From Mycetohabitans endofungorum (GTDB taxonomy: Bacteria; Pseudomonadota; Gammaproteobacteria; Burkholderiales; Burkholderiaceae): a stretch of DNA of 64,000 nucleotides. Below are positions 1,464 through 11,604 of the stretch, one piece after another. How positions within the stretch are numbered: position 1 is the stretch's first letter; every line of letters begins with the position of its first letter. Location: assembly GCF_037477895.1 (NCBI RefSeq), contig NZ_CP132744.1, positions 62,001-126,000 on the forward strand. The letters run 5' to 3'. The position numbers were made by a program, and so were the translations under genes. The notes beneath the pieces were generated by a model. The model worked only from the letters and a program-made list of their open reading frames with translations. It did no database searches and was not told the DNA's origin.

Positions 1464-1493
1464 TTGACACGCCGCCCGCACTCGCCGTAAAGT
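1464..1493 (+). promoter_or_regulatory. Candidate promoter of the 1601-10002 operon
   Basis: TTGACA at 1464-1469 (perfect -35), 18-base spacer, TAAAGT at 1488-1493 (four of six to TATAAT). Transcription would start near 1500, giving a leader of about 100 bases that contains the palindrome at 1511-1539. Confidence 0.5.
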
Positions 1494-1510
1494 GAGCGCA
1501 CAGATCTAGA

Positions 1511-1539
1511 CAAGAGACTATCTGTAAGATGGTCTCTTG
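1511..1539 (+). promoter_or_regulatory. Leader hairpin / operator; possible GlpP-antiterminator target
   Basis: CAAGAGAC (1511-1518), T, ATCT (1520-1523), GTA loop, AGAT (1527-1530), G, GTCTCTTG (1532-1539): a 29-base inverted repeat with one internal T/G position. It lies inside the predicted 5' leader of the operon, which encodes a GlpP-type RNA-binding antiterminator at 7932. No U-run follows it directly, so it may instead be a DNA operator. Confidence 0.5.
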
Positions 1540-1600
1540 CGCGCATCGATCGCGTTGTCTGTTCAGGCCTCTTACAGAATCATGGGAATGGAGGCCGGCA

Positions 1601-3064
1601 GTGCAAGCCATCGCGATCAAGATTCGTGGCATTGAAGACATCATATCGTTCCTCGACTCACAGCCCCGCATCGCGGGCAGAGCCGGCCTCATCTGGTGGC
1701 TGTCGCTCGGTGGGTTGTTTCTCGACGCATTCTCGAATTCAGCGCTGAGCGCGGGCCTCGGGCCAATGACGCGCGATCTCCATCTGACGGCGGCGCAGGT
1801 GGCGCTCATGACGTCGTTCGCATCATGGGTGGCGATTGCATTCAATCCAATCGGCGGTTGGATGGCCGACCGCTGGGGCCGGATCCGCCCCCTAGTCATC
1901 GCGAAACTGCTGTCAGTGCTCGGCGCAGTGCTGGTGGTATTCGCGCCGCGCTTTGAAGTGATCCTGCTGGGGCGCTTCTTCGTTGGCATGGCGTATGGCA
2001 TCGATTTCGCGATCGCCATGGCCATGCTGGCCGAGTTCACGCCAGCACGCTTGAAAAGCCGCCTGAACGCGTGGCAAGGCATGTGGTACACGGCGGTATG
2101 CACGAACTTGTTGTTGGCGTTGCTGTTCCACTCATGGAACGTTGGGGATTCGATCTGGCGCTACTCGGTTGCGGCCACTGCCGTATTTGGCGTCGCCATT
2201 TTGCTCATGCAGTTTGCATTCCTGATTGAGAGCCCGATCTGGCTCGCTCGCAGGGACAGACTGGATGACGCGGCCCGCGCGATGGCGCAAATCTATGGTC
2301 GACCATTCGTCGCTGCGCCGCTGCATGAGCGCGTGCCGCTGGTTAACCCGGCAACGCGCGGGCTGGCCAACGTGCTGTTGATCTTTCGCGGTGTGTACCT
2401 GCCGCGCACGGTCCTGGCGGCCACCGTGCAGATCGGACAATCGATCGAGTACTTCGCCATCGGCTGGTATTTGCCGCTGATCAGCGCGGCGCTGTTCGGC
2501 AAGGATTTCGTGTACGCGACGCTCGGTGCACTGGTGTTCAACGTATTTGGTATCGCGGGTGGCTTCACTTCGCCGCTGATCGCGCGCCGACTGGGCTTGC
2601 GGCATGCATCAGCCATGGGATTTGCAGCGGTCTTCGCGATGTTGCTGATACTAGGCCTGTTCCATGCCCAGATGCCGCTATGGGCATGCGTGGTTATTCC
2701 ATCGTTGTTCATTCTGCTTCATTCCGGCGGGCCGGGAGCGAATGGCAAGAGTCTGTCGTCACTGTCGTTCCGCGGCGAACTGCGCGCCAGTGCCAACGGC
2801 GTTGTCGGCGCGCTCGGCTCGATCGGTGCGGCGCTGGGACTGCTCGTCTTCCCGCTGTTCCTGGAACGATACGGCCTGGAGCAGACCTTCCTGATCCTGG
2901 CCGTCGTGCCATTTGTCGCCAGTGTGATCTGCTTGACGATTCGCTGGGACCCCACGCGCACAACGATCACTCCGGATAACGAGCCGGACGCACCCCAGTT
3001 CAAGAATGCCCCGTCGTCCAAGCCGGCGTTGACGAACCCCGCCATCGAGAAGACCCAACCATGA
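1601..3064 (+). CDS. MFS transporter (metabolite:H+ symporter type)
   Basis: 487 residues from GTG 1601, preceded by GGAATGGAGG; an upstream in-frame ATG at 1529 falls inside the leader palindrome and is unlikely. About twelve hydrophobic segments are visible. The loop between helices 2 and 3 has the MFS signature region GGWMADRWGRIRPLV. The protein resembles the aromatic-acid/metabolite symporter branch, which includes E. coli YgcS. It ends with ATGA overlapping the kinase start, so the two genes are translationally coupled. It is the likely importer for the substrate of this operon; the substrate is not known from sequence. Confidence 0.8.
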   Translation: MQAIAIKIRGIEDIISFLDSQPRIAGRAGLIWWLSLGGLFLDAFSNSALSAGLGPMTRDLHLTAAQVALMTSFASWVAIAFNPIGGWMADRWGRIRPLVIAKLLSVLGAVLVVFAPRFEVILLGRFFVGMAYGIDFAIAMAMLAEFTPARLKSRLNAWQGMWYTAVCTNLLLALLFHSWNVGDSIWRYSVAATAVFGVAILLMQFAFLIESPIWLARRDRLDDAARAMAQIYGRPFVAAPLHERVPLVNPATRGLANVLLIFRGVYLPRTVLAATVQIGQSIEYFAIGWYLPLISAALFGKDFVYATLGALVFNVFGIAGGFTSPLIARRLGLRHASAMGFAAVFAMLLILGLFHAQMPLWACVVIPSLFILLHSGGPGANGKSLSSLSFRGELRASANGVVGALGSIGAALGLLVFPLFLERYGLEQTFLILAVVPFVASVICLTIRWDPTRTTITPDNEPDAPQFKNAPSSKPALTNPAIEKTQP

Positions 3065-4668
3065 CCGCGCATCGAAACGCCATCCTTGCGATCGACGAAG
3101 GCACGTCTGGCACACGGGCCGCGCTAGTCGACGCCAGTGGACACGTATCCTGCCTCGAATATCTGCCGCTACACGTGGACAGTCCGCAACCAGGGGTCGT
3201 CGAGCAAGATGCGAATGCGATCCTGGACAAGACCATCGCGGTCTGCTACGCGACGCTGGCAAGGGCTGCACAGCAAAAGGTGCGGGTCGTCGCGGTGGCC
3301 ATCGCCACCCAGCGGGCAACGGCCGTACTATGGGACACGCACACGGGACGGGCACTGGTCCCTGCGATGGTCTGGCAGGATACGCGTCATGCGGCCGATC
3401 TCGAGCGCCTGGCCGCCACCTGGGACCGCAGGTTGGTGGCAGGCGTAGGCCGACCCGCCGGCGTGCGCTCGCCGTATCTATGGGCGGCCCATCAACTACG
3501 CACGGTGCCGGCAGTCGCCGACGCGTTCCGCGCCCGCCGCCTCGCGTTCGGCACGATCGACACTTGGCTGCTATGGCACCTATCCACCGAGCGTACATGC
3601 GTGACCACGCCGACCAATGCGACTTCGGCGAGTGCCTATTTGCTGGGCGAGCATCGGTATTTCGACGCCTGGATCGATGCGCTGGGCTTTCCGCGTGAGC
3701 TGTTGCCGGCGTTGCGCGAGGACGCGGACACGTTCGGCCGCACCCGGCCCGAGTTACTCGGGATCGACGTGCCGATCCTGGCCTGCGCGGGCGACCAGCT
3801 TGCCGGCGCGATCGGACTCGGGTGCCTCGACCGTGGGCAATCGATGTGCGTACACGGCACGGGCAGCTTCGTCGACCTGCTGACGGGCCCGGCCTTACCG
3901 TGCACCACGCTCATGGATGAGCACCAGCACCAGCACCAGCACCAGCACCAGCACCAGCACCAGCACCAGCACCAGCACCAGCACCAGCACCCACCATCAT
4001 ACGGCGCAACGCTGGCCATAACAGCACGCCGCCATGGCGGCGTTTCACACTATTCGCTCGAAACCTTCGTCGCCACGACGGGCTGCGCACTGAATTGGGT
4101 TTGCGACACGTTGCGCTGGTTCGACCATCCGGCGCAGATCAGCGCCCTGGCCCGCACCGTGTCGTCGGCGCGCGACGTGCTGTTCGTCCCCGCATTGACC
4201 GGGTTGCGCGTGCCGCAAATGGAACCCTGCGCCCGCGCATCGCTATCCGGGATATCGATTGCGACCACGCGGGAAGAGGTCGCGTTCGCCCTCCTCGAGG
4301 GCATTGGCCATTCGGTGACATCATGCATGGAGGCGAACCAAGCGGTGGCACGTATCGACGTGCATGAGCTGGTGGTCGGCGGCGGCCTATCGGGCAGCGA
4401 CGTGCTGCTGCAGATCCAGGCGGATCTGAGCGGCCTGCCGGTGCGGCGTATCCGCGAGAGCGACCGCGCGAGCCTGCGCGGTGCGGCGTTCCTGGCCGGC
4501 GCCTCGGGCCTGTTGTGGGACTCGCTGGATGCGGCACGCGCCACGCTGGTCACCGACGCGGTGTTCGAGCCGTCGCCCGACACCGGCTTGCGACAACAAC
4601 GGCGCGCGAGATGGCACGCGCGCATCCAATCTGAACTTGCCCATGCGGCCGATTTCGATCACGGTTGA
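3061..4668 (+). CDS. FGGY-family carbohydrate kinase, glycerol-kinase-like
   Basis: 535 residues. The N-terminal phosphate-binding motif is IDEGTSGTRAALVD (residues 11-24). A second actin-like motif, HGTGSFVDLLTG, lies mid-protein, and the C-terminal domain has the FGGY signature region ELVVGGGLSGSDVLLQIQAD and SLRGAAFLAGA. It should phosphorylate a polyol such as glycerol or a glycerol derivative. Directly after the HGTGSF domain there is an inserted (His-Gln)n tract, which accounts for much of the excess over the usual 500 residues. It is coupled to the MFS gene upstream and followed after 18 bases by the GlpD-like gene. E. coli YgcE is a comparable kinase in a comparable neighbourhood. Confidence 0.85.
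   Translation: MTAHRNAILAIDEGTSGTRAALVDASGHVSCLEYLPLHVDSPQPGVVEQDANAILDKTIAVCYATLARAAQQKVRVVAVAIATQRATAVLWDTHTGRALVPAMVWQDTRHAADLERLAATWDRRLVAGVGRPAGVRSPYLWAAHQLRTVPAVADAFRARRLAFGTIDTWLLWHLSTERTCVTTPTNATSASAYLLGEHRYFDAWIDALGFPRELLPALREDADTFGRTRPELLGIDVPILACAGDQLAGAIGLGCLDRGQSMCVHGTGSFVDLLTGPALPCTTLMDEHQHQHQHQHQHQHQHQHQHQHQHPPSYGATLAITARRHGGVSHYSLETFVATTGCALNWVCDTLRWFDHPAQISALARTVSSARDVLFVPALTGLRVPQMEPCARASLSGISIATTREEVAFALLEGIGHSVTSCMEANQAVARIDVHELVVGGGLSGSDVLLQIQADLSGLPVRRIRESDRASLRGAAFLAGASGLLWDSLDAARATLVTDAVFEPSPDTGLRQQRRARWHARIQSELAHAADFDHG
3922..3990 (+). repeat. In-frame CACCAG hexanucleotide repeat coding for (His-Gln)11-His
   Basis: 69 bases of uninterrupted CAC CAG codons inside the FGGY kinase gene. 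Because the unit is six bases, copy-number change would alter protein length by dipeptides without shifting frame. The insert falls between MDE and PPSYGATL, in a region that is a variable loop in glycerol kinases. Confidence 0.95.
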
Positions 4669-4686
4669 GTACGGAGATTCACCAGT

Positions 4687-6366
4687 ATGATTTTCTTACC
4701 ATCCAGACGGCCCAGGCAGGATCGGGCTGCGATGACGGCCACGTCGCCACTGCGCGTAGTGCGTGAGGAACAGCTCGCGCGCCTGGGCGGCGACACATTC
4801 GACATGTTGATCGTCGGCGGCGGCGTCACCGGCGCCTATGCGGCACTGGACGCGAGCCTGCGCGGCTACCGCGTCGCTTTGGTCGAGAAAAGTGACTTCG
4901 CGTCCGGGACGTCGTCCAAATCCTCGAAGATGGTTCATGGCGGCCTGCGCTACATCGAGCAGGGCAATCTCAGCCTGGTGCGCCACTCGCTGCTGGAGCG
5001 GCAGCGCCTGCGCCGCAATGCGCGCCACCTAGTGCAACGGCTGCCGTTCCTGTTCCCAGTGATGGAGCGCGACGGCGTATTCGACAAGCGCCTGGCGAAG
5101 GCCTTCGAGAGCCTGTTGTGGACGTATGACCTCGCCGGCGGCTGGCGCGAAGGCATCCTGCACCAGAAACTGACCAAGGCTGAAGTGCTGTCGCACTGCC
5201 CAACGTTCAACGAAGCGTACTTAACCGGCGGCTTCATGTATTTCGATGCGCGCGTGGACGATGCGCGGTTGACGCTGACGCTGGCGCGCACCGCGGCGTT
5301 CCACGGCGCGGCGCTGGCCAATCATGCGCGCGTGGCCGAGGTTACCCGTAATGCGCAAGGACGCGTCGATGGTGCAATCGTGCATGCCGACGGCCGCGAG
5401 ATCCGCGTGCGCGCCGGCGTGGTAATCATGGCAACCGGCGTCTGGCTGCGCGACTGGGACGGGCGCCGCAAGGGGGATGCACCAGCGCTCCAGGTACGAC
5501 CGGCCAAGGGCGTGCATGTGGCGATTCCGTGGTTGAAGATTCGCAACGACTGCACCGTCACGATCCCGGTGCCGGGCCGCAACCGGCGTGCGACGATCAC
5601 CCGCTGGGGCAACGTCTCGTACCTGGGTACCACCGACGAAGACTACGACGGCAACCTGGACAACGTGTACTGCACACGGCAAGAACTTGATTTCCTGCTG
5701 GAAGGCGCCCGCTCGGCTTTGAAGACGGACCTGCAGCCGCACGACGTAGTGGGCAGCATCGCCGGCTGCCGGCCGCTGGTCGGCCCCCCCGGCGGCAAGA
5801 CGATCGAGATGCGCCGCAACCATGAGATCCACATCGCGCCCGACGGCCTGGTGACGATTGTCGGCGGCAAGCTGACGACCTCCCGGCACATGGCGGAGCA
5901 GACCATCGACGCGGCGCAGACAGTCATCGGCAAACGCGCGCCATGCCGCACGAAATCGGCCTACCTGCTGGGCGCGGCCGGCTACGACCCGCAGGCGATC
6001 GTCGCCTCGGGCGGACTGGCCGCGCATCTGGGCGAGCGCTACGGCACCGAGGCACGTTTTGTCAGCGACCTGATCGATGCACGCCCGTCACTGCTCGCCC
6101 CGATCGTCGAGGGCTTGCCGTACAGCGAAGCGGAAGTGGTCTACGCTGCGCGCCATGAGTTGGCGCGCAGCGTAGACGACGTGCTGTCGCGGCGCACGCG
6201 CGCACGATTGATGGCGCGCGATGCGTCAGCCCGCGCCGCACCGCGCGTGGGTCAGATTCTAAAGGCGGAGCTCGGCTTGTCCGACGCGCTCGTCGCCAGC
6301 CAGGTGCGCGACTACGTCGCGGCCGTCCAATACGAGAAATCGGTCCTCATCGGAGATAACGGATGA
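4687..6366 (+). CDS. FAD-dependent glycerol-3-phosphate dehydrogenase, GlpD/GlpA-like
   Basis: 559 residues. FAD-binding GxGxxG at about residues 44-49 (LIVGGGVTGAYAALDA), then the family signature FASGTSSKSSKMVHGGLRY. GlpD-family landmarks continue with YLGTTDEDY and a C-terminal GlpD cap domain. It should oxidise a glycerol-3-phosphate-type substrate at the membrane and pass electrons to quinone. ATG 4687 follows ACGGAG; an internal ATG at 4732 is a possible alternative. It overlaps the next gene by ATGA. In this operon it would act on the product of the adjacent kinase. The true substrate may be a substituted glycerol phosphate rather than glycerol 3-phosphate. Confidence 0.85.
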   Translation: MIFLPSRRPRQDRAAMTATSPLRVVREEQLARLGGDTFDMLIVGGGVTGAYAALDASLRGYRVALVEKSDFASGTSSKSSKMVHGGLRYIEQGNLSLVRHSLLERQRLRRNARHLVQRLPFLFPVMERDGVFDKRLAKAFESLLWTYDLAGGWREGILHQKLTKAEVLSHCPTFNEAYLTGGFMYFDARVDDARLTLTLARTAAFHGAALANHARVAEVTRNAQGRVDGAIVHADGREIRVRAGVVIMATGVWLRDWDGRRKGDAPALQVRPAKGVHVAIPWLKIRNDCTVTIPVPGRNRRATITRWGNVSYLGTTDEDYDGNLDNVYCTRQELDFLLEGARSALKTDLQPHDVVGSIAGCRPLVGPPGGKTIEMRRNHEIHIAPDGLVTIVGGKLTTSRHMAEQTIDAAQTVIGKRAPCRTKSAYLLGAAGYDPQAIVASGGLAAHLGERYGTEARFVSDLIDARPSLLAPIVEGLPYSEAEVVYAARHELARSVDDVLSRRTRARLMARDASARAAPRVGQILKAELGLSDALVASQVRDYVAAVQYEKSVLIGDNG

Positions 6367-7922
6367 TCAGCAAGGAAGCCATTCAGCGCGGCTACAACCG
6401 CGGCAATTATGTCGTCGGCGCTCACACGCCGCCACCGTACTCGCTGAACCTGCCCAGTGTGCCGTACGACGCGCCGGCCGGCAGCATGCAACGCGCACCG
6501 GTGCAGGTCTCGGAGCGGCAATGCGACGCGCTGCGGGAAATCGCCGACGAGGTGATCACACAGCCGGCACAAGTGGTCGCGTGGACCCGTGACTGGTGGG
6601 CTGCCTCGATGGTCACGGAAACCGCCGGCCGGCCGGCCACGCCGCACGCCGTTGTCGTGCGCGTGTCCAGCGTCGCGCAGGTCCAGGCGGTAATGCGCAT
6701 TGCGCATGCGGCGTCGATCCCAGTGACGGCGTCGGCCGGGCGCAGCAACGTCACCGGCGCGGCGCTGCCGGTGCGTGGCGGCATCGTGCTGGACTTATGC
6801 GGCCTAAACCGGCTACTCAGCGTAGATCAAGAAAGCCAGCTCGTCGAGGTGGAGGCGGGTATGTTCGGCGACGTGTTCGAGGCGTCGCTGCAGCGCGAGC
6901 ACAAGTTGACGACGGGACACTGGCCGTCGTCGTTTGGTATCAGCACCGTGGGGGGGTGGATCGCCTGCCGAGGCGCCGGACAGCTGTCCACGCGCTACGG
7001 CAAGATCGAGGACATGGTATACGGCATGGACGTCGTGCTGGCCGACGGCTCGCTGATCAGCGTCGGCGGCTATCCGCGCGCAGCGGTCGGGCCGGACCTG
7101 CAGCAGCTGTTCATCGGCAGCGAAGGCACGCTGGGCATCATCGTGCGCGCACGATTGAAGCTGCACCGCCTACCGGACTACGGTCGGGCGATTGCCTATG
7201 GCTTCGACTCGTTCGCCGCCGGCCTGCACGCATGCCGCGAAATCATGCAGCGCGGCGCCCAACCAGCGGCGCTGCGTCTGTACGATGCGCTCGAAAGCGG
7301 CGTGCAGTTCGGCCTGCCAGACACGAATGTGCTGCTGATCGCCGACGAGGGCACGCGCGAGATTGTGGATGCGGGGATTGCGGTCTGCGAGCAGGTGTGC
7401 AAGCCGCAAGGGCAGCCGCTGGCCGGGGAAGCGATCTTTGAGAAGTGGCTCGACACGCGGTACCTGACCGGCAAAAGCGCGGAGGGCTTCAAACGCAGCC
7501 CGGGGTTCGTCGCCGACACGCTGGAGATGGCGGGGCGCTGGCGCGATCTGGCCGCGATCTATCGCGATGTGGTCGATGCGCTGCAATCGGTGCCGGGTAC
7601 GTTGGCGGGCTCCGCGCATCAGTCGCATGCCTATGTGGACGGCGCATGCCTGTACTTCTCGTTGCGCGGCGAAGTGGCCATCGAGCAGCGCGCCGCGTGG
7701 TACCGCCGTGCGTGGGACGCGGCCAATGCCGTGCTGATCCAATACAATGCGACGCTGAGCCACCACCATGGTGTAGGTCTACTGCGCGCGCCCTACATGC
7801 GCGACTCGCTGGGCAGCGCGTTCCCCGTGCTACAAGCGCTCAAGCGTACGCTGGATCCGAAGAACATTCTCAACCCTGGTAAGCTCGGCCTGGATGACGA
7901 CATCGTCCCGCCGGCAAGCTGA
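6363..7922 (+). CDS. Alkyl-dihydroxyacetonephosphate-synthase-like FAD flavoprotein
   Basis: 519 residues with a PCMH-type FAD domain. It matches human AGPS in remembered hallmarks: STVGGWIACRGAG, IEDMVYGMDVV, GSEGTLGIIVRARLKL, the catalytic-type Arg in AALRLYD (R305), Tyr in GACLYFSL (Y431) and the triple His in LSHHHGVG (H467-469), ending DPKNILNPGKLGL. AGPS exchanges the acyl group of acyl-DHAP for a fatty alcohol to form an ether; bacterial homologues include the uncharacterised E. coli YgcU. It overlaps the GlpD-like gene by four bases, and GlpP follows after nine. Inference: it cleaves or forms a C-O bond on the DHAP made by the preceding dehydrogenase. It could also be a plain FAD oxidase. 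Confidence 0.85.
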   Translation: MISKEAIQRGYNRGNYVVGAHTPPPYSLNLPSVPYDAPAGSMQRAPVQVSERQCDALREIADEVITQPAQVVAWTRDWWAASMVTETAGRPATPHAVVVRVSSVAQVQAVMRIAHAASIPVTASAGRSNVTGAALPVRGGIVLDLCGLNRLLSVDQESQLVEVEAGMFGDVFEASLQREHKLTTGHWPSSFGISTVGGWIACRGAGQLSTRYGKIEDMVYGMDVVLADGSLISVGGYPRAAVGPDLQQLFIGSEGTLGIIVRARLKLHRLPDYGRAIAYGFDSFAAGLHACREIMQRGAQPAALRLYDALESGVQFGLPDTNVLLIADEGTREIVDAGIAVCEQVCKPQGQPLAGEAIFEKWLDTRYLTGKSAEGFKRSPGFVADTLEMAGRWRDLAAIYRDVVDALQSVPGTLAGSAHQSHAYVDGACLYFSLRGEVAIEQRAAWYRRAWDAANAVLIQYNATLSHHHGVGLLRAPYMRDSLGSAFPVLQALKRTLDPKNILNPGKLGLDDDIVPPAS

Positions 7923-7931
7923 TATTTCGAT

Positions 7932-8543
7932 ATGGACAAGTCCCTCGGAGCGCGTCTGGCCCGACATCCTGTGATTGCAACGCTGTATGGCACCGAGCAG
8001 CTTGACAGCTTCATCGGCAGCGCGGCCGAGGTCGGCATCGTGGCCAACGTCGAGCTGCGCAAGCTGCAGGCGGTCGTGGTCACGCTGACGCGGGCCGGCA
8101 AGTCCGTGATCGTCAATATCGACAGCTGCGATGGGCTGTCGCAGGACAAGGGCGGCGTCGAATATCTCGTCGATATTGGCGTCACCAGCTTAGTGTCCAC
8201 GCGCGTGGCGACGGTGCAACGCGCCAACCGCGCCGGTCTGATGACAATGCAGAAGGTTTTCGTGACGGACCGCTCGACGTGGCCGCGCAGCATCAAGGCG
8301 ATCGAGCAGAGCGATCCCAATTTGGTGCAGCTGATGCCGGCGCCGATGCTGCCGCACCTGCGTGAGCAAAACCGTGCGGCGCTGCCACCGATCGTCGCGT
8401 CGGGCTTCGTCTGCAATGAGCACGATGTGCGCCAGGCGCAGGCGCACGGCGCGGTGGCGGTGTCCACCAGCGACAGTCAATTGTGGAACCTGGATCGCCG
8501 CGCGGAACGCGCGACGAACCGTGGAAGAGGGAATCAACAGTGA
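7932..8543 (+). CDS. GlpP-family glycerol-3-phosphate-responsive antiterminator
   Basis: 203 residues. The typical GlpP core is visible: VVNIDS-like strand (SVIVNIDSCDGL), then VQLMPAPMLPHL, then IVASGFVCNEHDVRQAQAHG and AVAVSTSDSQLW near the C-terminus. In Bacillus subtilis GlpP binds glycerol-3-phosphate and prevents termination in leader RNAs of glp genes; the E. coli homologue YgcP is uncharacterised. Here the gene sits inside the operon it probably controls. The hairpin at 1511-1539 in the operon leader is the obvious candidate target. Its stop overlaps the GTG of the next gene. Confidence 0.85.
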   Translation: MDKSLGARLARHPVIATLYGTEQLDSFIGSAAEVGIVANVELRKLQAVVVTLTRAGKSVIVNIDSCDGLSQDKGGVEYLVDIGVTSLVSTRVATVQRANRAGLMTMQKVFVTDRSTWPRSIKAIEQSDPNLVQLMPAPMLPHLREQNRAALPPIVASGFVCNEHDVRQAQAHGAVAVSTSDSQLWNLDRRAERATNRGRGNQQ

Positions 8544-8848
8544 AGCCGCCCTACTTGCAGGTCATTGCCCACTATTTCGCCAAGCCCGGGCAGAGTGAGC
8601 GCGTGCTAACGCTGCTCGACGCGCTCGCGCGCGCCACGCGCGATGAGCCGAAGAACCTGGACTACCAGTTCTTCCGCTCGCCGCACGATCCTGACCATTT
8701 TGTGATCCTCGAGCAGTATACCGATGCAACGGGGCTGGACGAGCATCGGCAAACGCCGCATTTTCAGCAGATCGGTTACGGTCAGATCATTCCGATGCTT
8801 GAACGCCGCGATGTCAGAAGCCACATGGTTCACGGAGCAAGCCAATGA
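8540..8848 (+). CDS. ABM-domain (antibiotic biosynthesis monooxygenase-like) small protein
   Basis: 102 residues from GTG 8540, which overlaps the GlpP stop (GTGA) and follows AGAGG at 8525-8529. The dimeric alpha-beta ABM fold is suggested by VIAHYFAKPGQSERVLTLLDALARATRDEPKNLDYQFF and ILEQYTDATGLDEHRQTPHFQQI. Members are often small oxygenases or isomerases (YgiN/LsrG types). Its job here is unknown; it may process a reactive aldehyde or quinone intermediate. It ends with ATGA over the alcohol-dehydrogenase start. Confidence 0.8.
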   Translation: MKPPYLQVIAHYFAKPGQSERVLTLLDALARATRDEPKNLDYQFFRSPHDPDHFVILEQYTDATGLDEHRQTPHFQQIGYGQIIPMLERRDVRSHMVHGASQ

Positions 8849-10002
8849 CCCCCTTGCTCTTTCAGACCGTGCCGACCGTGATCGTGGAGTTCGGCGCGGC
8901 ACGCCGGCTCGGGGCATTGCTGCGCGAGCACTTCGGCACACTGAGCCGACTGTGCGTGGTCACCGACGCGTTCCTGCATCGCAGCGGACTGCTCGGGCCC
9001 GCGCTGGCGGACCTCACCGCGCAGGGCTGGCATGTCACTGTCATCGATGACGTGGTGGCCGATCCGCCCGAACAGGTGGTGCTCCACGCCGCCGCGCGTG
9101 CTTCGGCCGTCGGTGCCGAAATCGTGCTCGGACTCGGCGGCGGCTCGTCAATGGACGTGGCCAAACTGATCGCCATCCTGGTGGCCGGGCAGCAACCGCT
9201 GGCCGAGATGTACGGCGTAGGCAACGTACGCGGCACGCGCGTGCCACTGGTGCAAATGCCGACCACCGCGGGCACCGGCTCGGAAGTCACCGCGGTGTCG
9301 ATCGTCACGCTCGGCAAGGCGCGCAAGATGGGCGTGGTCGCGCCACAGCTGTTCGCTGACGTCGCGATTCTGGACGCGGAACTCACGCTTGGCCTGCCGC
9401 GTGCGACGACCGCGGCCACCGGCATCGATGCCATGGTGCATGCGATCGAGGCGTACACGTCGGCACGCCTGAAGAACCCGCTGTCAGACAGACTCGCGCT
9501 GCAGGCGCTGGAGCTGTTGTCCCGCCACCTGCTGCCGGCGTGCGACAACGGGCAGGACCGCGCGGCGCGCGAGGCAATGCTACTCGGCGCGATGCTGGCC
9601 GGGCAGGCTTTCGCCAATGCACCGGTGGCCGCCGTGCACGCGCTCGCGTATCCGATCGGCGGCCTGTTTCACGTGCCCCACGGCTTGTCCAATGCACTCG
9701 TACTGCCCCACGTGCTGCGCTTCAACGCGAACACAGCCGCACAGCAGTATGCGCAGCTTGCGTCGATCGTCGCGCCCGACGCACGCGGCAGCGACGAAGC
9801 CAGGACCGCGGTATGGATTGCACGGATCGACGCGCTGATTGCCGCCACCGGGATCCCGAGGACGCTGCGCGAAGTCGGCGTCGGCCGGCACGATCTGCCG
9901 AGAATGGCCGCTGATGCGATGCTGCAGACCCGTCTGCTCGTGAACAATCCGCGTGAAGTCCGCGAAGCCGACGCCCTCGCCATCTACGAGCAGGCTTGGT
10001 AG
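8845..10002 (+). CDS. Iron-containing alcohol dehydrogenase (group III)
   Basis: 385 residues. NAD-binding GGGSSMDVAK (98-107) and TTAGTGSEVT (140-149) are canonical. The metal ligands expected for the family are present as Asp195, His199, His265 and His279, in GIDAMVHAIEAY, VHALAYP and HVPHGLSNALVLPHV. It oxidises a primary alcohol or reduces an aldehyde with NAD(P). As last gene of the operon it would handle the alcohol released from the substrate, for instance an alkyl alcohol if the flavoprotein cleaves an ether. A maleylacetate-reductase-like role cannot be excluded. Confidence 0.85.
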   Translation: MTPLLFQTVPTVIVEFGAARRLGALLREHFGTLSRLCVVTDAFLHRSGLLGPALADLTAQGWHVTVIDDVVADPPEQVVLHAAARASAVGAEIVLGLGGGSSMDVAKLIAILVAGQQPLAEMYGVGNVRGTRVPLVQMPTTAGTGSEVTAVSIVTLGKARKMGVVAPQLFADVAILDAELTLGLPRATTAATGIDAMVHAIEAYTSARLKNPLSDRLALQALELLSRHLLPACDNGQDRAAREAMLLGAMLAGQAFANAPVAAVHALAYPIGGLFHVPHGLSNALVLPHVLRFNANTAAQQYAQLASIVAPDARGSDEARTAVWIARIDALIAATGIPRTLREVGVGRHDLPRMAADAMLQTRLLVNNPREVREADALAIYEQAW

Positions 10003-10017
10003 GACGCCCACGTTTCG

Positions 10018-10196
10018 TGGACCTGGCCCACATGTCTTTCTTTGCGACCGTGGGCTCGGCCCGCACGCCTTTCTTTGCGATCTTGCCATAGGCCGACTTG
10101 GGCAGCGCGTTCCAGAACACGAATAAGCGCGGACCTGTGTAGCGCGCAGTCGGGCATGCCGAGTACCGCGACCTCATGCACGGCCGGGCTACGCAC
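10018..10196 (-). pseudogene. Remnant of an AMP-dependent acyl-CoA synthetase, C-terminal end
   Basis: On the minus strand two typical C-terminal pieces are read in different frames: SPAVHEVAVLGMPD near 10190-10155 and ARYTGPRLFVFW followed by LPKSAYGKIAKKGVRA near 10150-10060. In intact ANL-family ligases these are separated by about 60-70 residues, so the gene has lost its N-terminal bulk and an internal part. It converges on the Fe-ADH gene. It may once have activated the acid derived from the alcohol product. Confidence 0.7.
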
Positions 10197-10274: not shown

Positions 10275-10460
10275 GATGTCACCGAGCTGCACCGGGAGTC
10301 GTTTCTGATATCGCCGCGCCAGACAGTGCCGTACCTTTACGATACGATCCTCACACATTACAAACGATGCGGCTTCACGCTGAAGATTCGGCCCGAAAAC
10401 CGCTATTAGCAGACTATCATCAAGCTGGTCGGCCACGGGATTGGCGGGACGGCAGGGGCG
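10275..10460 (+). pseudogene. Remnant of a LysR-type regulator, effector domain
   Basis: The frame reads TELHRESFLISPRQTVPYLYDTILTHYKRCGFTLKI, an in-frame TAG at 10407-10409, then QTIIKLVGHGIGG. This is the recognisable middle of the LysR substrate-binding domain (compare typical MQTIVSLVAAGLGV). No DNA-binding domain remains. It may be the lost regulator of the neighbouring acyl-CoA synthetase or of the whole cluster. Confidence 0.7.
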
Positions 10461-10579
10461 CGCGCCCGGCGCAAAAGGGCTGTCGGAAAAGGCGGTGGAC
10501 CAGGCCCATCCCCGAGCCGGCATCGAACTTGCGCACGACCATCGACGTCTGTCGAAGAAGGCCGAGGAGAGTCGATACC

Positions 10580-11182
10580 ATGCATCCGACGATGCCCCCT
10601 GCCGACACGGCGCCGATATGGCCGTCACTGGCCGATCCGCGCCCGGCACATCATCCCCCAGCATTCGTCCATCCGGGGCCTCCGACATCGCCACGCATCG
10701 CTCAAGTGCTGACTCATCACAGCACGCACGAGCTACTCATCACGCTGCCGCCGGGCGCTAACTTCGCAACCGCACTGCACCGGACACTGGATGGCTTCAC
10801 GCAGCGCAGCGGCTGTGCGCGCATCAGTGGCGGCGGCGTATGCGCGCACGTCGAATATCACGTCATCATTCGTGCCGCGCACGCTGGCCCACCGTACGTG
10901 TATGGCCCGCCAATCGTCTGTGACGGCGACGTCACGCTAGTGGATGCGACGATCACGATTGGTCGGTGCGAGGACGGCAGCCGCGTGCTGCATTGCCATG
11001 GCGGCATGATCGATGCCCGCGGCAGGCACCACGGCGGCCATTTGGACCTGCAGCGGACCGTGGTCGGCCATGAGCCGATGCGGGTCAGGGTATGCCTGTT
11101 CGACGAGTTGGAACTGGTCGTCTCCCATGATCCGGAAACCACCTACGACCTGTTGCAACCGATAAGGACACCGCTCGTATGA
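10580..11182 (+). CDS. PPC/DUF296-domain protein
   Basis: 200 residues from ATG 10580, chosen because GAGGAGAG at 10564-10571 precedes it. After a Pro-rich N-terminus of about 45 residues, a PPC (plant and prokaryote conserved, DUF296) fold is suggested: HELLITLPPGANFATALHRTL, ARISGGGV, GPPIVCDGDVTLVDATIT, VLHCHGGMIDARGRHHGGH. The domain is found alone in bacteria and fused to AT-hooks in plants; its bacterial function is unclear and the His cluster may bind metal. It overlaps the second PPC gene by ATGA, so the products may form a hetero-oligomer. Confidence 0.75.
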   Translation: MHPTMPPADTAPIWPSLADPRPAHHPPAFVHPGPPTSPRIAQVLTHHSTHELLITLPPGANFATALHRTLDGFTQRSGCARISGGGVCAHVEYHVIIRAAHAGPPYVYGPPIVCDGDVTLVDATITIGRCEDGSRVLHCHGGMIDARGRHHGGHLDLQRTVVGHEPMRVRVCLFDELELVVSHDPETTYDLLQPIRTPLV

Positions 11183-11604
11183 AAGACCACGTCATGATCG
11201 AATCGGGCCGCCTGGGGCGGCTGGTCGTCGCGCGCGTCAAACCTAACGAGGACCTGATCACGTCGCTGGAACACCTGTGCGACGCGCACGGGGTCGAGCG
11301 GGCGCTGGTACGCGGTGCGGTCGGCAGCCTACTCGGCGCGACACTGCTGCTGCCGCAGCGTAGTACGAGCGCGGCCATCACGGTCGAGGGTCCCGGGGTC
11401 GAAATCCTGAGCCTGTCCGGCGAAATATCGCGTATGGCCGCAACGGGCTGTGCGTCGTCGATCAGCGGCATGGTCGCGGACCCGAACGGGCGGATGTTCG
11501 CGGGACGCTTGCAACGAGGCGGCAACCGCTCGTTTATCACAATCGAGGTGTCGTTGCAGGAGTGGCTGGTCGACTCCATCATCGAAGGTCCCGCCACGCC
11601 GTGA
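11179..11604 (+). CDS. PPC/DUF296-domain protein
   Basis: 141 residues. A single PPC domain: RLVVARVKPNEDLITSLEHLCDAHGVERALVRGAVGSLLGATLL, GVEILSLSGEIS, ISGMVADPNGRMFAGRL. It lacks the His-rich loop of its upstream partner. It starts within the stop of that gene (ATGA) and ends two bases before the convergent metR stop. The two proteins are paralogous only at domain level. I cannot assign a reaction; association with the preceding catabolic operon is by position only. Confidence 0.75.
   Translation: MKDHVMIESGRLGRLVVARVKPNEDLITSLEHLCDAHGVERALVRGAVGSLLGATLLLPQRSTSAAITVEGPGVEILSLSGEISRMAATGCASSISGMVADPNGRMFAGRLQRGGNRSFITIEVSLQEWLVDSIIEGPATP

Follow-up and report, generated by a model that had tools for sequence, protein, structure and literature searches.

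What does an operon do that joins glycerol-type enzymes to a flavoprotein of the alkyl-dihydroxyacetone phosphate (alkyl-DHAP) synthase type (AGPS)? The question is raised by a 64,000-nucleotide stretch of Mycetohabitans endofungorum DNA (contig NZ_CP132744.1, positions 62,001 to 126,000; hereafter the window), in which seven same-strand genes with their 3′ end at 10002 encode an MFS importer, an FGGY kinase, a GlpD-like dehydrogenase, an AGPS-like flavoprotein, a GlpP-type antiterminator, an ABM-fold protein, and an iron-containing alcohol dehydrogenase (Fe-ADH). We tentatively propose, as a reading that falls just short of probable, that this is a catabolic operon, probably horizontally spread, for a polar, terminally substituted glycerol, which the AGPS-like enzyme would cleave and whose breakdown would be governed by a GlpP-controlled leader RNA. 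The literature searched, mostly outside subscription journals, yielded neither a functional assignment of the operon nor a description of the leader.

Conservation of the operon and its enzymes

All seven families named in the original prediction are present, and the genes are tightly coupled through ATGA overlaps (3061–3064, 6363–6366, and 8845–8848), a GTGA overlap (8540–8543), and gaps of 18 bp (4669–4686) and 9 bp (7923–7931). The operon itself is thereby confirmed; its earlier interpretation, as a pathway for alkylglycerol ethers or another substituted glycerol, is partly supported. The recurrence of clusters with AGPS-like, FGGY, GlpP, and MFS genes, which had been anticipated, was also found. 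From 114 pattern matches, 85 relatives were confirmed, and in the 80 loci kept, homologs (matches to a window gene above 60 bits) of the AGPS-like gene number 80, of the GlpD-like gene 79, of the FGGY kinase 78, of GlpP 77, and of the MFS importer 74. The six loci without the importer comprise three truncated by a contig end (L049, L053, and L082) and three that have no GlpP either (L071, L077, and L083). Wherever the genes are present, the core order MFS–kinase–GlpD–AGPS–GlpP is constant from Proteobacteria to Actinobacteria (Burkholderia, Achromobacter, Cupriavidus, Citrobacter, Raoultella, Ochrobactrum, Delftia, and Actinobacteria such as Agromyces), with AGPS-like identities of 64–97%. Presence in a sample of 249 Burkholderiaceae genomes is patchy, with an AGPS-like match above 880 bits in 19 and any match at 1e-40 in 26. 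This constant order across distant bacteria, together with the sporadic presence, suggests spread by horizontal transfer. In two actinobacterial loci (L075 and L080), a zinc-type alcohol dehydrogenase (Zn-ADH) follows the operon. The B. cytisi record (L062, 5357–12135) has broken-up open reading frames (ORFs) for MFS, kinase, GlpD, and GlpP, a sign of either decay or sequencing error.

AGPS makes ether lipids from acyl-DHAP, whereas the context of the window gene is catabolic. The window protein has FAD_binding_4 and FAD-oxidase_C domains, and its closest solved family is AGPS (2uuu, 2e-48, and 4bby, 1e-42, which we take to be the Dictyostelium and guinea-pig enzymes), followed by LctD of the lactate/glycolate dehydrogenases (4e-34). 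The predicted AGPS active site is borne out: a triple His occupies residues 467–469, and Tyr431 aligns with guinea-pig AGPS Tyr578, presumably the catalytic residue. The motif SHHHGxG is present in the AGPS-like proteins of all 80 loci, whereas GEHG or AEHG stands in place of HHH in three GlcD-type proteins encoded in the same genome. An N-terminal extension (MISKEAIxRGYNRGNY; 6363–6510 in the window) is conserved in the operon-type proteins and is not found in YgcU or in the proteins of L095 and L175. Of the partner proteins, the GlpD-like enzyme scores 264.1 bits, below the canonical GlpD equivalog cut-off of 360 (NF008899), and GlpP scores 167 bits against a Pfam gathering score of 27 (PF04309).

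The kinase bears most directly on the substrate. It falls short of the canonical GlpK cut-off of TIGR01311 (Table 1), which two kinases encoded elsewhere in the genome exceed (729 and 726 bits against 590); one further DAO_C (GlpD-type) dehydrogenase gene adjoins one of these two glpK genes. In the available text on the glycerol kinase of C. thermophilum, Arg148, Glu149, Asp317, and Gln318 hold glycerol, and Trp168 and Phe342 pack it (PMC7765489). Aligned to own-genome GlpKs, all 76 readable operon kinases (of the remaining four loci, L053 is truncated, L062 has a disrupted kinase, and two contain no ORF for it) retain Arg, Trp, Asp, Gln, and Phe, and the Glu of the QRET motif, alone among the six residues compared, is lost in every one of them, being replaced with Ala (64), Cys (6), or Ser (6). 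In GlpK, this Glu presumably contacts the hydroxyl opposite the phosphorylated end. The loop of what we take to be GlpK Tyr135 is altered as well, a gap included, and the residue match is uncertain there. The other glpK and GlpD-type genes and the loss of the Glu make plain glycerol an unlikely substrate, and we do not favor it. The four GlpK-like kinases tested from beside other AGPS-like genes read QRAT (Microbacterium), QRAS (Novosphingobium), QRTT (Paracoccus jeotgali), and QRTS (L196), and the kinases of L197, L198, and L199, whose best reference match is YgcE, read QRGT; kinases of the YgcE, S. clavuligerus, E. gilvus, and xylulokinase types have no such motif at all and no bearing on the Glu question.

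Annotated contexts of further AGPS-like genes, 10 from 40 listed rows (62 matching records) plus 2 from another 40 listed rows (764 matching records; one of the two unannotated), were picked by eye for diversity, and the pattern that they form is therefore not a frequency. The AGPS-like gene lies beside YgcE and YgcW, a short-chain dehydrogenase/reductase (SDR), in E. coli and in a second enteric genome, L195; beside xylulokinase-like, GldA-like, and SDR genes with a Ugp-type ABC importer; beside GlpK and GlpD in one context and GlpD and an FGGY kinase in others, including P. jeotgali and L196–L199 (in L197–L199 as a YgcE-like plus GlpD pair); together with GlpP, SDR or GldA, and an FGGY kinase in still others; and, in L175 and M. 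nodulans, next to genes for a four-carbon acid sugar kinase and PdxA. Judged from gene content, these contexts support the notion of a module recurring with non-homologous parts, in which a kinase and then a dehydrogenase would deliver a DHAP-type ketone to an AGPS-like enzyme. All the pairs could end in such a ketone, which is known chemistry for GlpK/GlpD and presumed for the others. Routes through a four-carbon acid sugar kinase and PdxA lead to DHAP; a route from threonate to DHAP is described in the available text of PMC12540250. This kinase and PdxA are non-homologous to the window's kinase and dehydrogenase and are not found in the window. The sets of this type in L175 (5725–9501) and L185 (6950–10565) include a DeoR regulator and are possibly a route for 2-O-substituted tetronates. 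In P. jeotgali, Fe-ADH, aldehyde dehydrogenase, and enoyl-CoA hydratase genes share one gene run with the AGPS-like gene, as would be expected if an alcohol were released and then oxidized. Two counter-cases to the module were seen, Mesorhizobium L191 (below) and L176, in which the AGPS-like protein reads HHHALG and the three neighbors scanned are a CoA-transferase, TctC, and a GlcD-like protein.

Among published sets, the nearest one found is PA3026–PA3024 of P. aeruginosa with GliR/PA3027, an operon for an FAD oxidoreductase, a GlpD-like protein, and an FGGY kinase (PMC8151288). Compared by description only, it differs in its AraC activator, GliR, and the available text names no MFS or GlpP; the authors propose alkylglycerone phosphate synthesis there, i.e., the opposite direction (PMC8151288). 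The same three classes stand in identical order in L197–L199, with an HQHG motif. For the window, the importer, GlpP, and the lost Glu favor the catabolic direction over that scheme. The earlier likening to the E. coli K-12 ygcN–ygcE region holds for the gene classes (AGPS-like with HHHG, FGGY kinase, MFS, and GlpP-like) but not for the proteins, which are distant from those of the window (YgcU 31% over 397 residues, YgcS 26%, YgcP 25%, and YgcE 29% over 122 residues only), nor for the redox partners, which are an SDR (YgcW) and electron-transfer flavoprotein (ETF)-like proteins (YgcQR) instead of GlpD. Scans of ten window proteins showed neither an SDR nor an ETF family, and a GlpD-like protein is present; a nucleotide search of 20,395 E. 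coli records gave no match to the AGPS-like gene of the window.

A conserved leader RNA upstream of the importer gene

The firmest new element of this analysis, and one that the original prediction did not contain, is a conserved leader RNA between the promoter and the MFS gene. A covariance model (R1) detects it upstream of MFS in 65 of the 80 loci and in the window with E < 1e-8; R1 was built from an alignment (A1) of 54 sequences, the window and 53 loci, so that most of these matches are by construction. The 249-genome search is a more independent test, with genomes that are still close relatives of the A1 sequences: the leader, the AGPS-like match above 880 bits, and GlpP above the Pfam cut-off each occur in 19 genomes, and these are the same 19, with one copy each, which ties the leader and GlpP to the operon. 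A class-wide search with stricter filters matched 1 of 274 genomes, the window's own. Of the 15 loci without a strong match, a contig end truncates three, another three are those that lack both MFS and GlpP, and the other nine are actinobacterial; among these nine, L080, L078, L079, and L090 match weakly (E 0.018 to 1.7). The model has no match up to E 10 in L071, L077, L083, E. coli ygc, Labrenzia, or canonical glp loci, and none up to E 1 in L175, L176, L181, or L185–L194, and no Rfam 15 model matches positions 1400–1750 up to E 10.

The leader is predicted to form several helices, some of which exclude one another (Table 1). Folded singly, the window leader has a minimum free energy z-score of −3.1, and six single leaders range from −3.1 to −6.7. 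Helix P1 hardly varies (three of its five pairs are invariant and none is changed on both sides) and is little evidence by itself. In hairpin A, both partners of the pair have changed in 33 cells; shuffles give 15.4, and 0 of 500 reach 33. The loop strand of this hairpin and a downstream strand show complementarity over 8 bp or more in 55 of 59 distinct leaders, compared with 4.6% of shuffled controls, and the pairing is kept despite sequence change (UCUGUAAGA/UCUUACAGA, AUCUGCAAGG/UCUUGCAGAU, and AUCUGCAUGA/UUAUGUGGAU), including compensated versions in Ochrobactrum/Brucella-group and Aureimonas leaders; it is not present in four enteric leaders (L051, L052, L057, and L067). The Shine-Dalgarno (SD) sequence is paired with a probability above 0.7 in 53 of 59 leaders, compared with 53% of 295 controls in which the upstream sequence was shuffled. 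The strand just 5′ of the SD is shared between the two pairings, such that it pairs either with the SD or with the hairpin loop. Three actinobacterial leaders that were folded have long stems (−26 to −32 kcal/mol) followed by T-runs, a terminator-like hairpin unlike the proteobacterial leaders; a simple terminator scan did not flag L080, the sole actinobacterial leader scanned.

A GlpP-family regulator and a leader RNA are also combined in the glp leaders of B. subtilis, where, according to the available text, GlpP with glycerol 3-phosphate disrupts a leader terminator (PMC9604022). The window-type leaders of Proteobacteria differ in that SD sequestration and the loop–downstream pairing take the place of the terminator. 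By analogy, GlpP would act on the leader RNA here as well; the same 19 of 249 genomes would also result from co-inheritance by itself, and binding of GlpP to the leader is therefore proposed from the B. subtilis precedent.

Proposed pathway and competing explanations

The substrate would be a polar compound of the class R-O-CH2-CHOH-CH2OH, imported by the MFS protein and phosphorylated at its free end by the GlpK-like kinase. The GlpD-like enzyme would oxidize C2 to yield a 1-substituted dihydroxyacetone phosphate, from which the AGPS-like enzyme would displace R-OH to leave DHAP, by the flavin-adduct chemistry of alkyl-DHAP synthase but with water taking the part of the fatty alcohol; Fe-ADH, or Zn-ADH in the two actinobacterial loci, would then oxidize R-OH. 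GlpP would sense the phosphorylated intermediate and act on the leader, which would switch between a sequestered and a free MFS ribosome-binding site, the terminator-like hairpin serving instead in actinobacteria. We infer these reactions, the class of substrate, which way the switch works, the GlpP–RNA contact, and the attachment of R as an ether from the genes, their conservation, the residue changes, and the RNA with its co-occurrence; as a class of substrate, a substituted glycerol is supported. The sequence of import, phosphorylation, oxidation, and release foreseen in the original prediction thus gains from the recurrent module and the P. jeotgali gene run, with its individual reactions still putative. 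Its choice of a substituted over a plain glycerol stands, for the reasons given for the kinase; its alkyl substituent is conjectural. The MFS importer, the sugar-type ABC importers beside relatives (one binding protein lies close to the variant operon of L077), and the IlvD/EDD dehydratase in two loci point to polar groups, and because of the importers, a long-chain alkylglycerol is not favored.

A broader claim, which we regard as possible but doubtful, is that bacteria run alkyl-DHAP-synthase chemistry backwards as a modular ether cleavage that starts from any kinase/dehydrogenase pair making a 1-O-substituted DHAP, controlled in the window by a GlpP-dependent pseudoknot RNA switch of a hitherto unknown class, which would regulate translation in Proteobacteria but termination in actinobacteria. 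If true, enzymes that are known in E. coli and P. aeruginosa by class only would gain a function, a further route for the cleavage of glycerol ethers would be added that needs no oxygenase, an RNA switch would be paired with a regulator and a ligand open to test, and the role of bacterial AGPS-like proteins would be open to direct assay with three enzymes and a panel of substituted glycerols.

Several observations weigh against the proposed pathway. Fe-ADH is found in just 23 and the ABM protein in just 33 of the 80 loci, and L071 and L077 (about 4.4–6.7 kb) carry an IlvD/EDD dehydratase upstream of the kinase and no MFS, GlpP, or leader match. Among the four distant GlpK-like partner kinases, the Phe is also lost in three (Novosphingobium, P. 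jeotgali, and L196, not Microbacterium), so that the Glu is not the sole change there. The triple His is not universal, as the AGPS-like protein of Mesorhizobium L191 has EHH(G) despite a xylulokinase context and those of L197–L199 have HQH. ETF-like genes lie beside ygcU in E. coli and likewise in L195, which suggests a redox role for the AGPS-like protein in that branch, and the operation of AGPS on water is chemistry that we assume. RNAalifold on the sequence-based alignment A1 gives six pairs only, and in none of them have both sides changed; the case for the RNA is built on the counts for named structures, the complementarity test, single-sequence folds, and SD pairing. A PA3026–PA3024 deletion was without phenotype on the Biolog plates used and on glycerol or citrate, according to the available text (PMC8151288).

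The E. coli arrangement, in which ygcU adjoins ETF-like and FAD/4Fe-4S genes, as it does in L195, would also fit an AGPS-like protein that is an ordinary flavin dehydrogenase, carrying out a second two-electron oxidation after GlpD in the manner of D-lactate dehydrogenase or YgcU. LctD, a lactate dehydrogenase subunit that we assume to be linked to ETF, is the next best solved family. The HHH and Tyr in place of the GEHG/AEHG of the three GlcD-type proteins speak against a dehydrogenase, as does the lack of an ETF match among the selected operon-type neighbors scanned, and we hold this explanation to be somewhat unlikely. The leader, for its part, could be a metabolite-binding riboswitch and not a GlpP target, since alternative pairings and SD sequestration are typical of riboswitches; its occurrence with GlpP in the same genomes and the action of GlpP on leader RNA in B. 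subtilis, as given in the available text (PMC9604022), make this rather unlikely, although both points also fit simple co-inheritance of the operon.

The two remaining explanations make use of glycerol itself. A biosynthetic operon leading from glycerol through DHAP to alkylglycerone phosphate for ether lipids would have the same three enzyme classes as PA3026–PA3024, for which the authors' scheme was derived in silico in the text available (PMC8151288), but it would leave the MFS importer and GlpP within the operon out of place, its kinase does not have the glycerol Glu, the genome has other glpK and GlpD-type genes, and no acyltransferase or alkyl-DHAP reductase is found among the seven genes; we consider it improbable. 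The GlpK-, GlpD-, and GlpP-like parts would suit a second operon for plain glycerol or glycerophosphate, which is highly improbable in view of the genes elsewhere in the genome and the altered kinases, and which would leave the AGPS-like enzyme without a role.

Layout, gene calls, and flanking sequences

The genome around the window comprises 3.55 Mb in two contigs, and its nearest named relatives are Mycetohabitans sp. B8 and M. endofungorum, whose AGPS-like proteins are 96–97% identical. The AGPS-like gene is present in four of eight Mycetohabitans genomes, the larger ones (3.3–3.8 Mb); the four without it are about 1.1–1.2 Mb. The features of the operon are collected in Table 1. As 1499–1600 is conserved leader RNA, GTG 1601 is more likely to be the MFS start than ATG 1529.

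Table 1. Operon and leader features in the window
Feature	Coordinates	Strand	Basis or remark
Sigma-70-type promoter, TTGACA-18-TAAAGT	1464..1493	+	10/12 consensus positions vs mean 0.1 in 50 shuffles; consensus match only
Conserved leader RNA, ~100 nt, begins about at expected transcript start	1499..1603	+	model match 79.9 bits (window among the model's source sequences)
P1: 1500–1504 (ACAGA) with 1521–1525 (UCUGU)	1500..1525	+	paired in 54/54 aligned leaders; excludes top of hairpin A
Hairpin A: 1511–1522 with 1528–1539	1511..1539	+	89.3% of cells paired; slid controls 36–53%
Long-range alternative: loop strand 1521–1529 (UCUGUAAGA) with 1570–1578 (UCUUACAGA)	1521..1578	+	complementarity test
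SD hairpin: 1566–1571 (GGCCUC) with 1591–1596 (GAGGCC)	1566..1596	+	single-sequence folds, SD pairing
MFS importer, aromatic-acid/sugar-porter superfamily	1601..3064	+	GTG start proposed; longest ORF 1529–3064
FGGY kinase, glycerol-kinase-like, QRAT replacing QRET	3061..4668	+	TIGR01311 311.9 bits, under 590 cut-off
6-bp repeat, 12 perfect copies within kinase (His-Gln run)	3920..3991	+	not in two aligned sister Mycetohabitans loci, L013 and L014
GlpD-like FAD dehydrogenase	4687..6366	+	DAO and DAO_C domains
AGPS-like flavoprotein, His467–469, Tyr431	6363..7922	+	domain, structure-relative, and motif matches
GlpP-type antiterminator (G3P_antiterm)	7932..8543	+	PF04309, E 3.5e-49
ABM-fold protein, LsrG/PA3566-like, accessory	8540..8848	+	family matches; found in 33/80 related loci
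Fe-containing alcohol dehydrogenase, accessory	8845..10002	+	family matches; found in 23/80 related loci

Changes in the copy number of the His-Gln repeat in the kinase would keep the reading frame. The operon flanks scanned in Citrobacter, Raoultella, Burkholderia, and Achromobacter encode unrelated functions (for example, HlyD/ABC-2 exporter, cytochrome bd, OKR decarboxylase, or DAHP synthase) and gave no clue to the substrate. An adjacent AMP-ligase remnant that had been predicted to mark activation of the acid was not recovered: at an E cut-off of 0.001, Pfam matched nothing in the single ORF scanned, and tblastn with the single ligase tried gave nothing significant. Visual inspection of the minus strand near 10030–10180 picks out two short look-alike motifs, which could conceivably be a tiny remnant. 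Just upstream of the operon, a 166-residue ORF (952–1452) has no Pfam/NCBIfam match, and its homologs lie solely in two Mycetohabitans loci of the 80. Downstream, two ORFs at 10367–11604, likewise matched among the 80 loci in two Mycetohabitans loci only, encode a protein with a weakly matching PCC (PPC) domain followed by one in which this domain is present.

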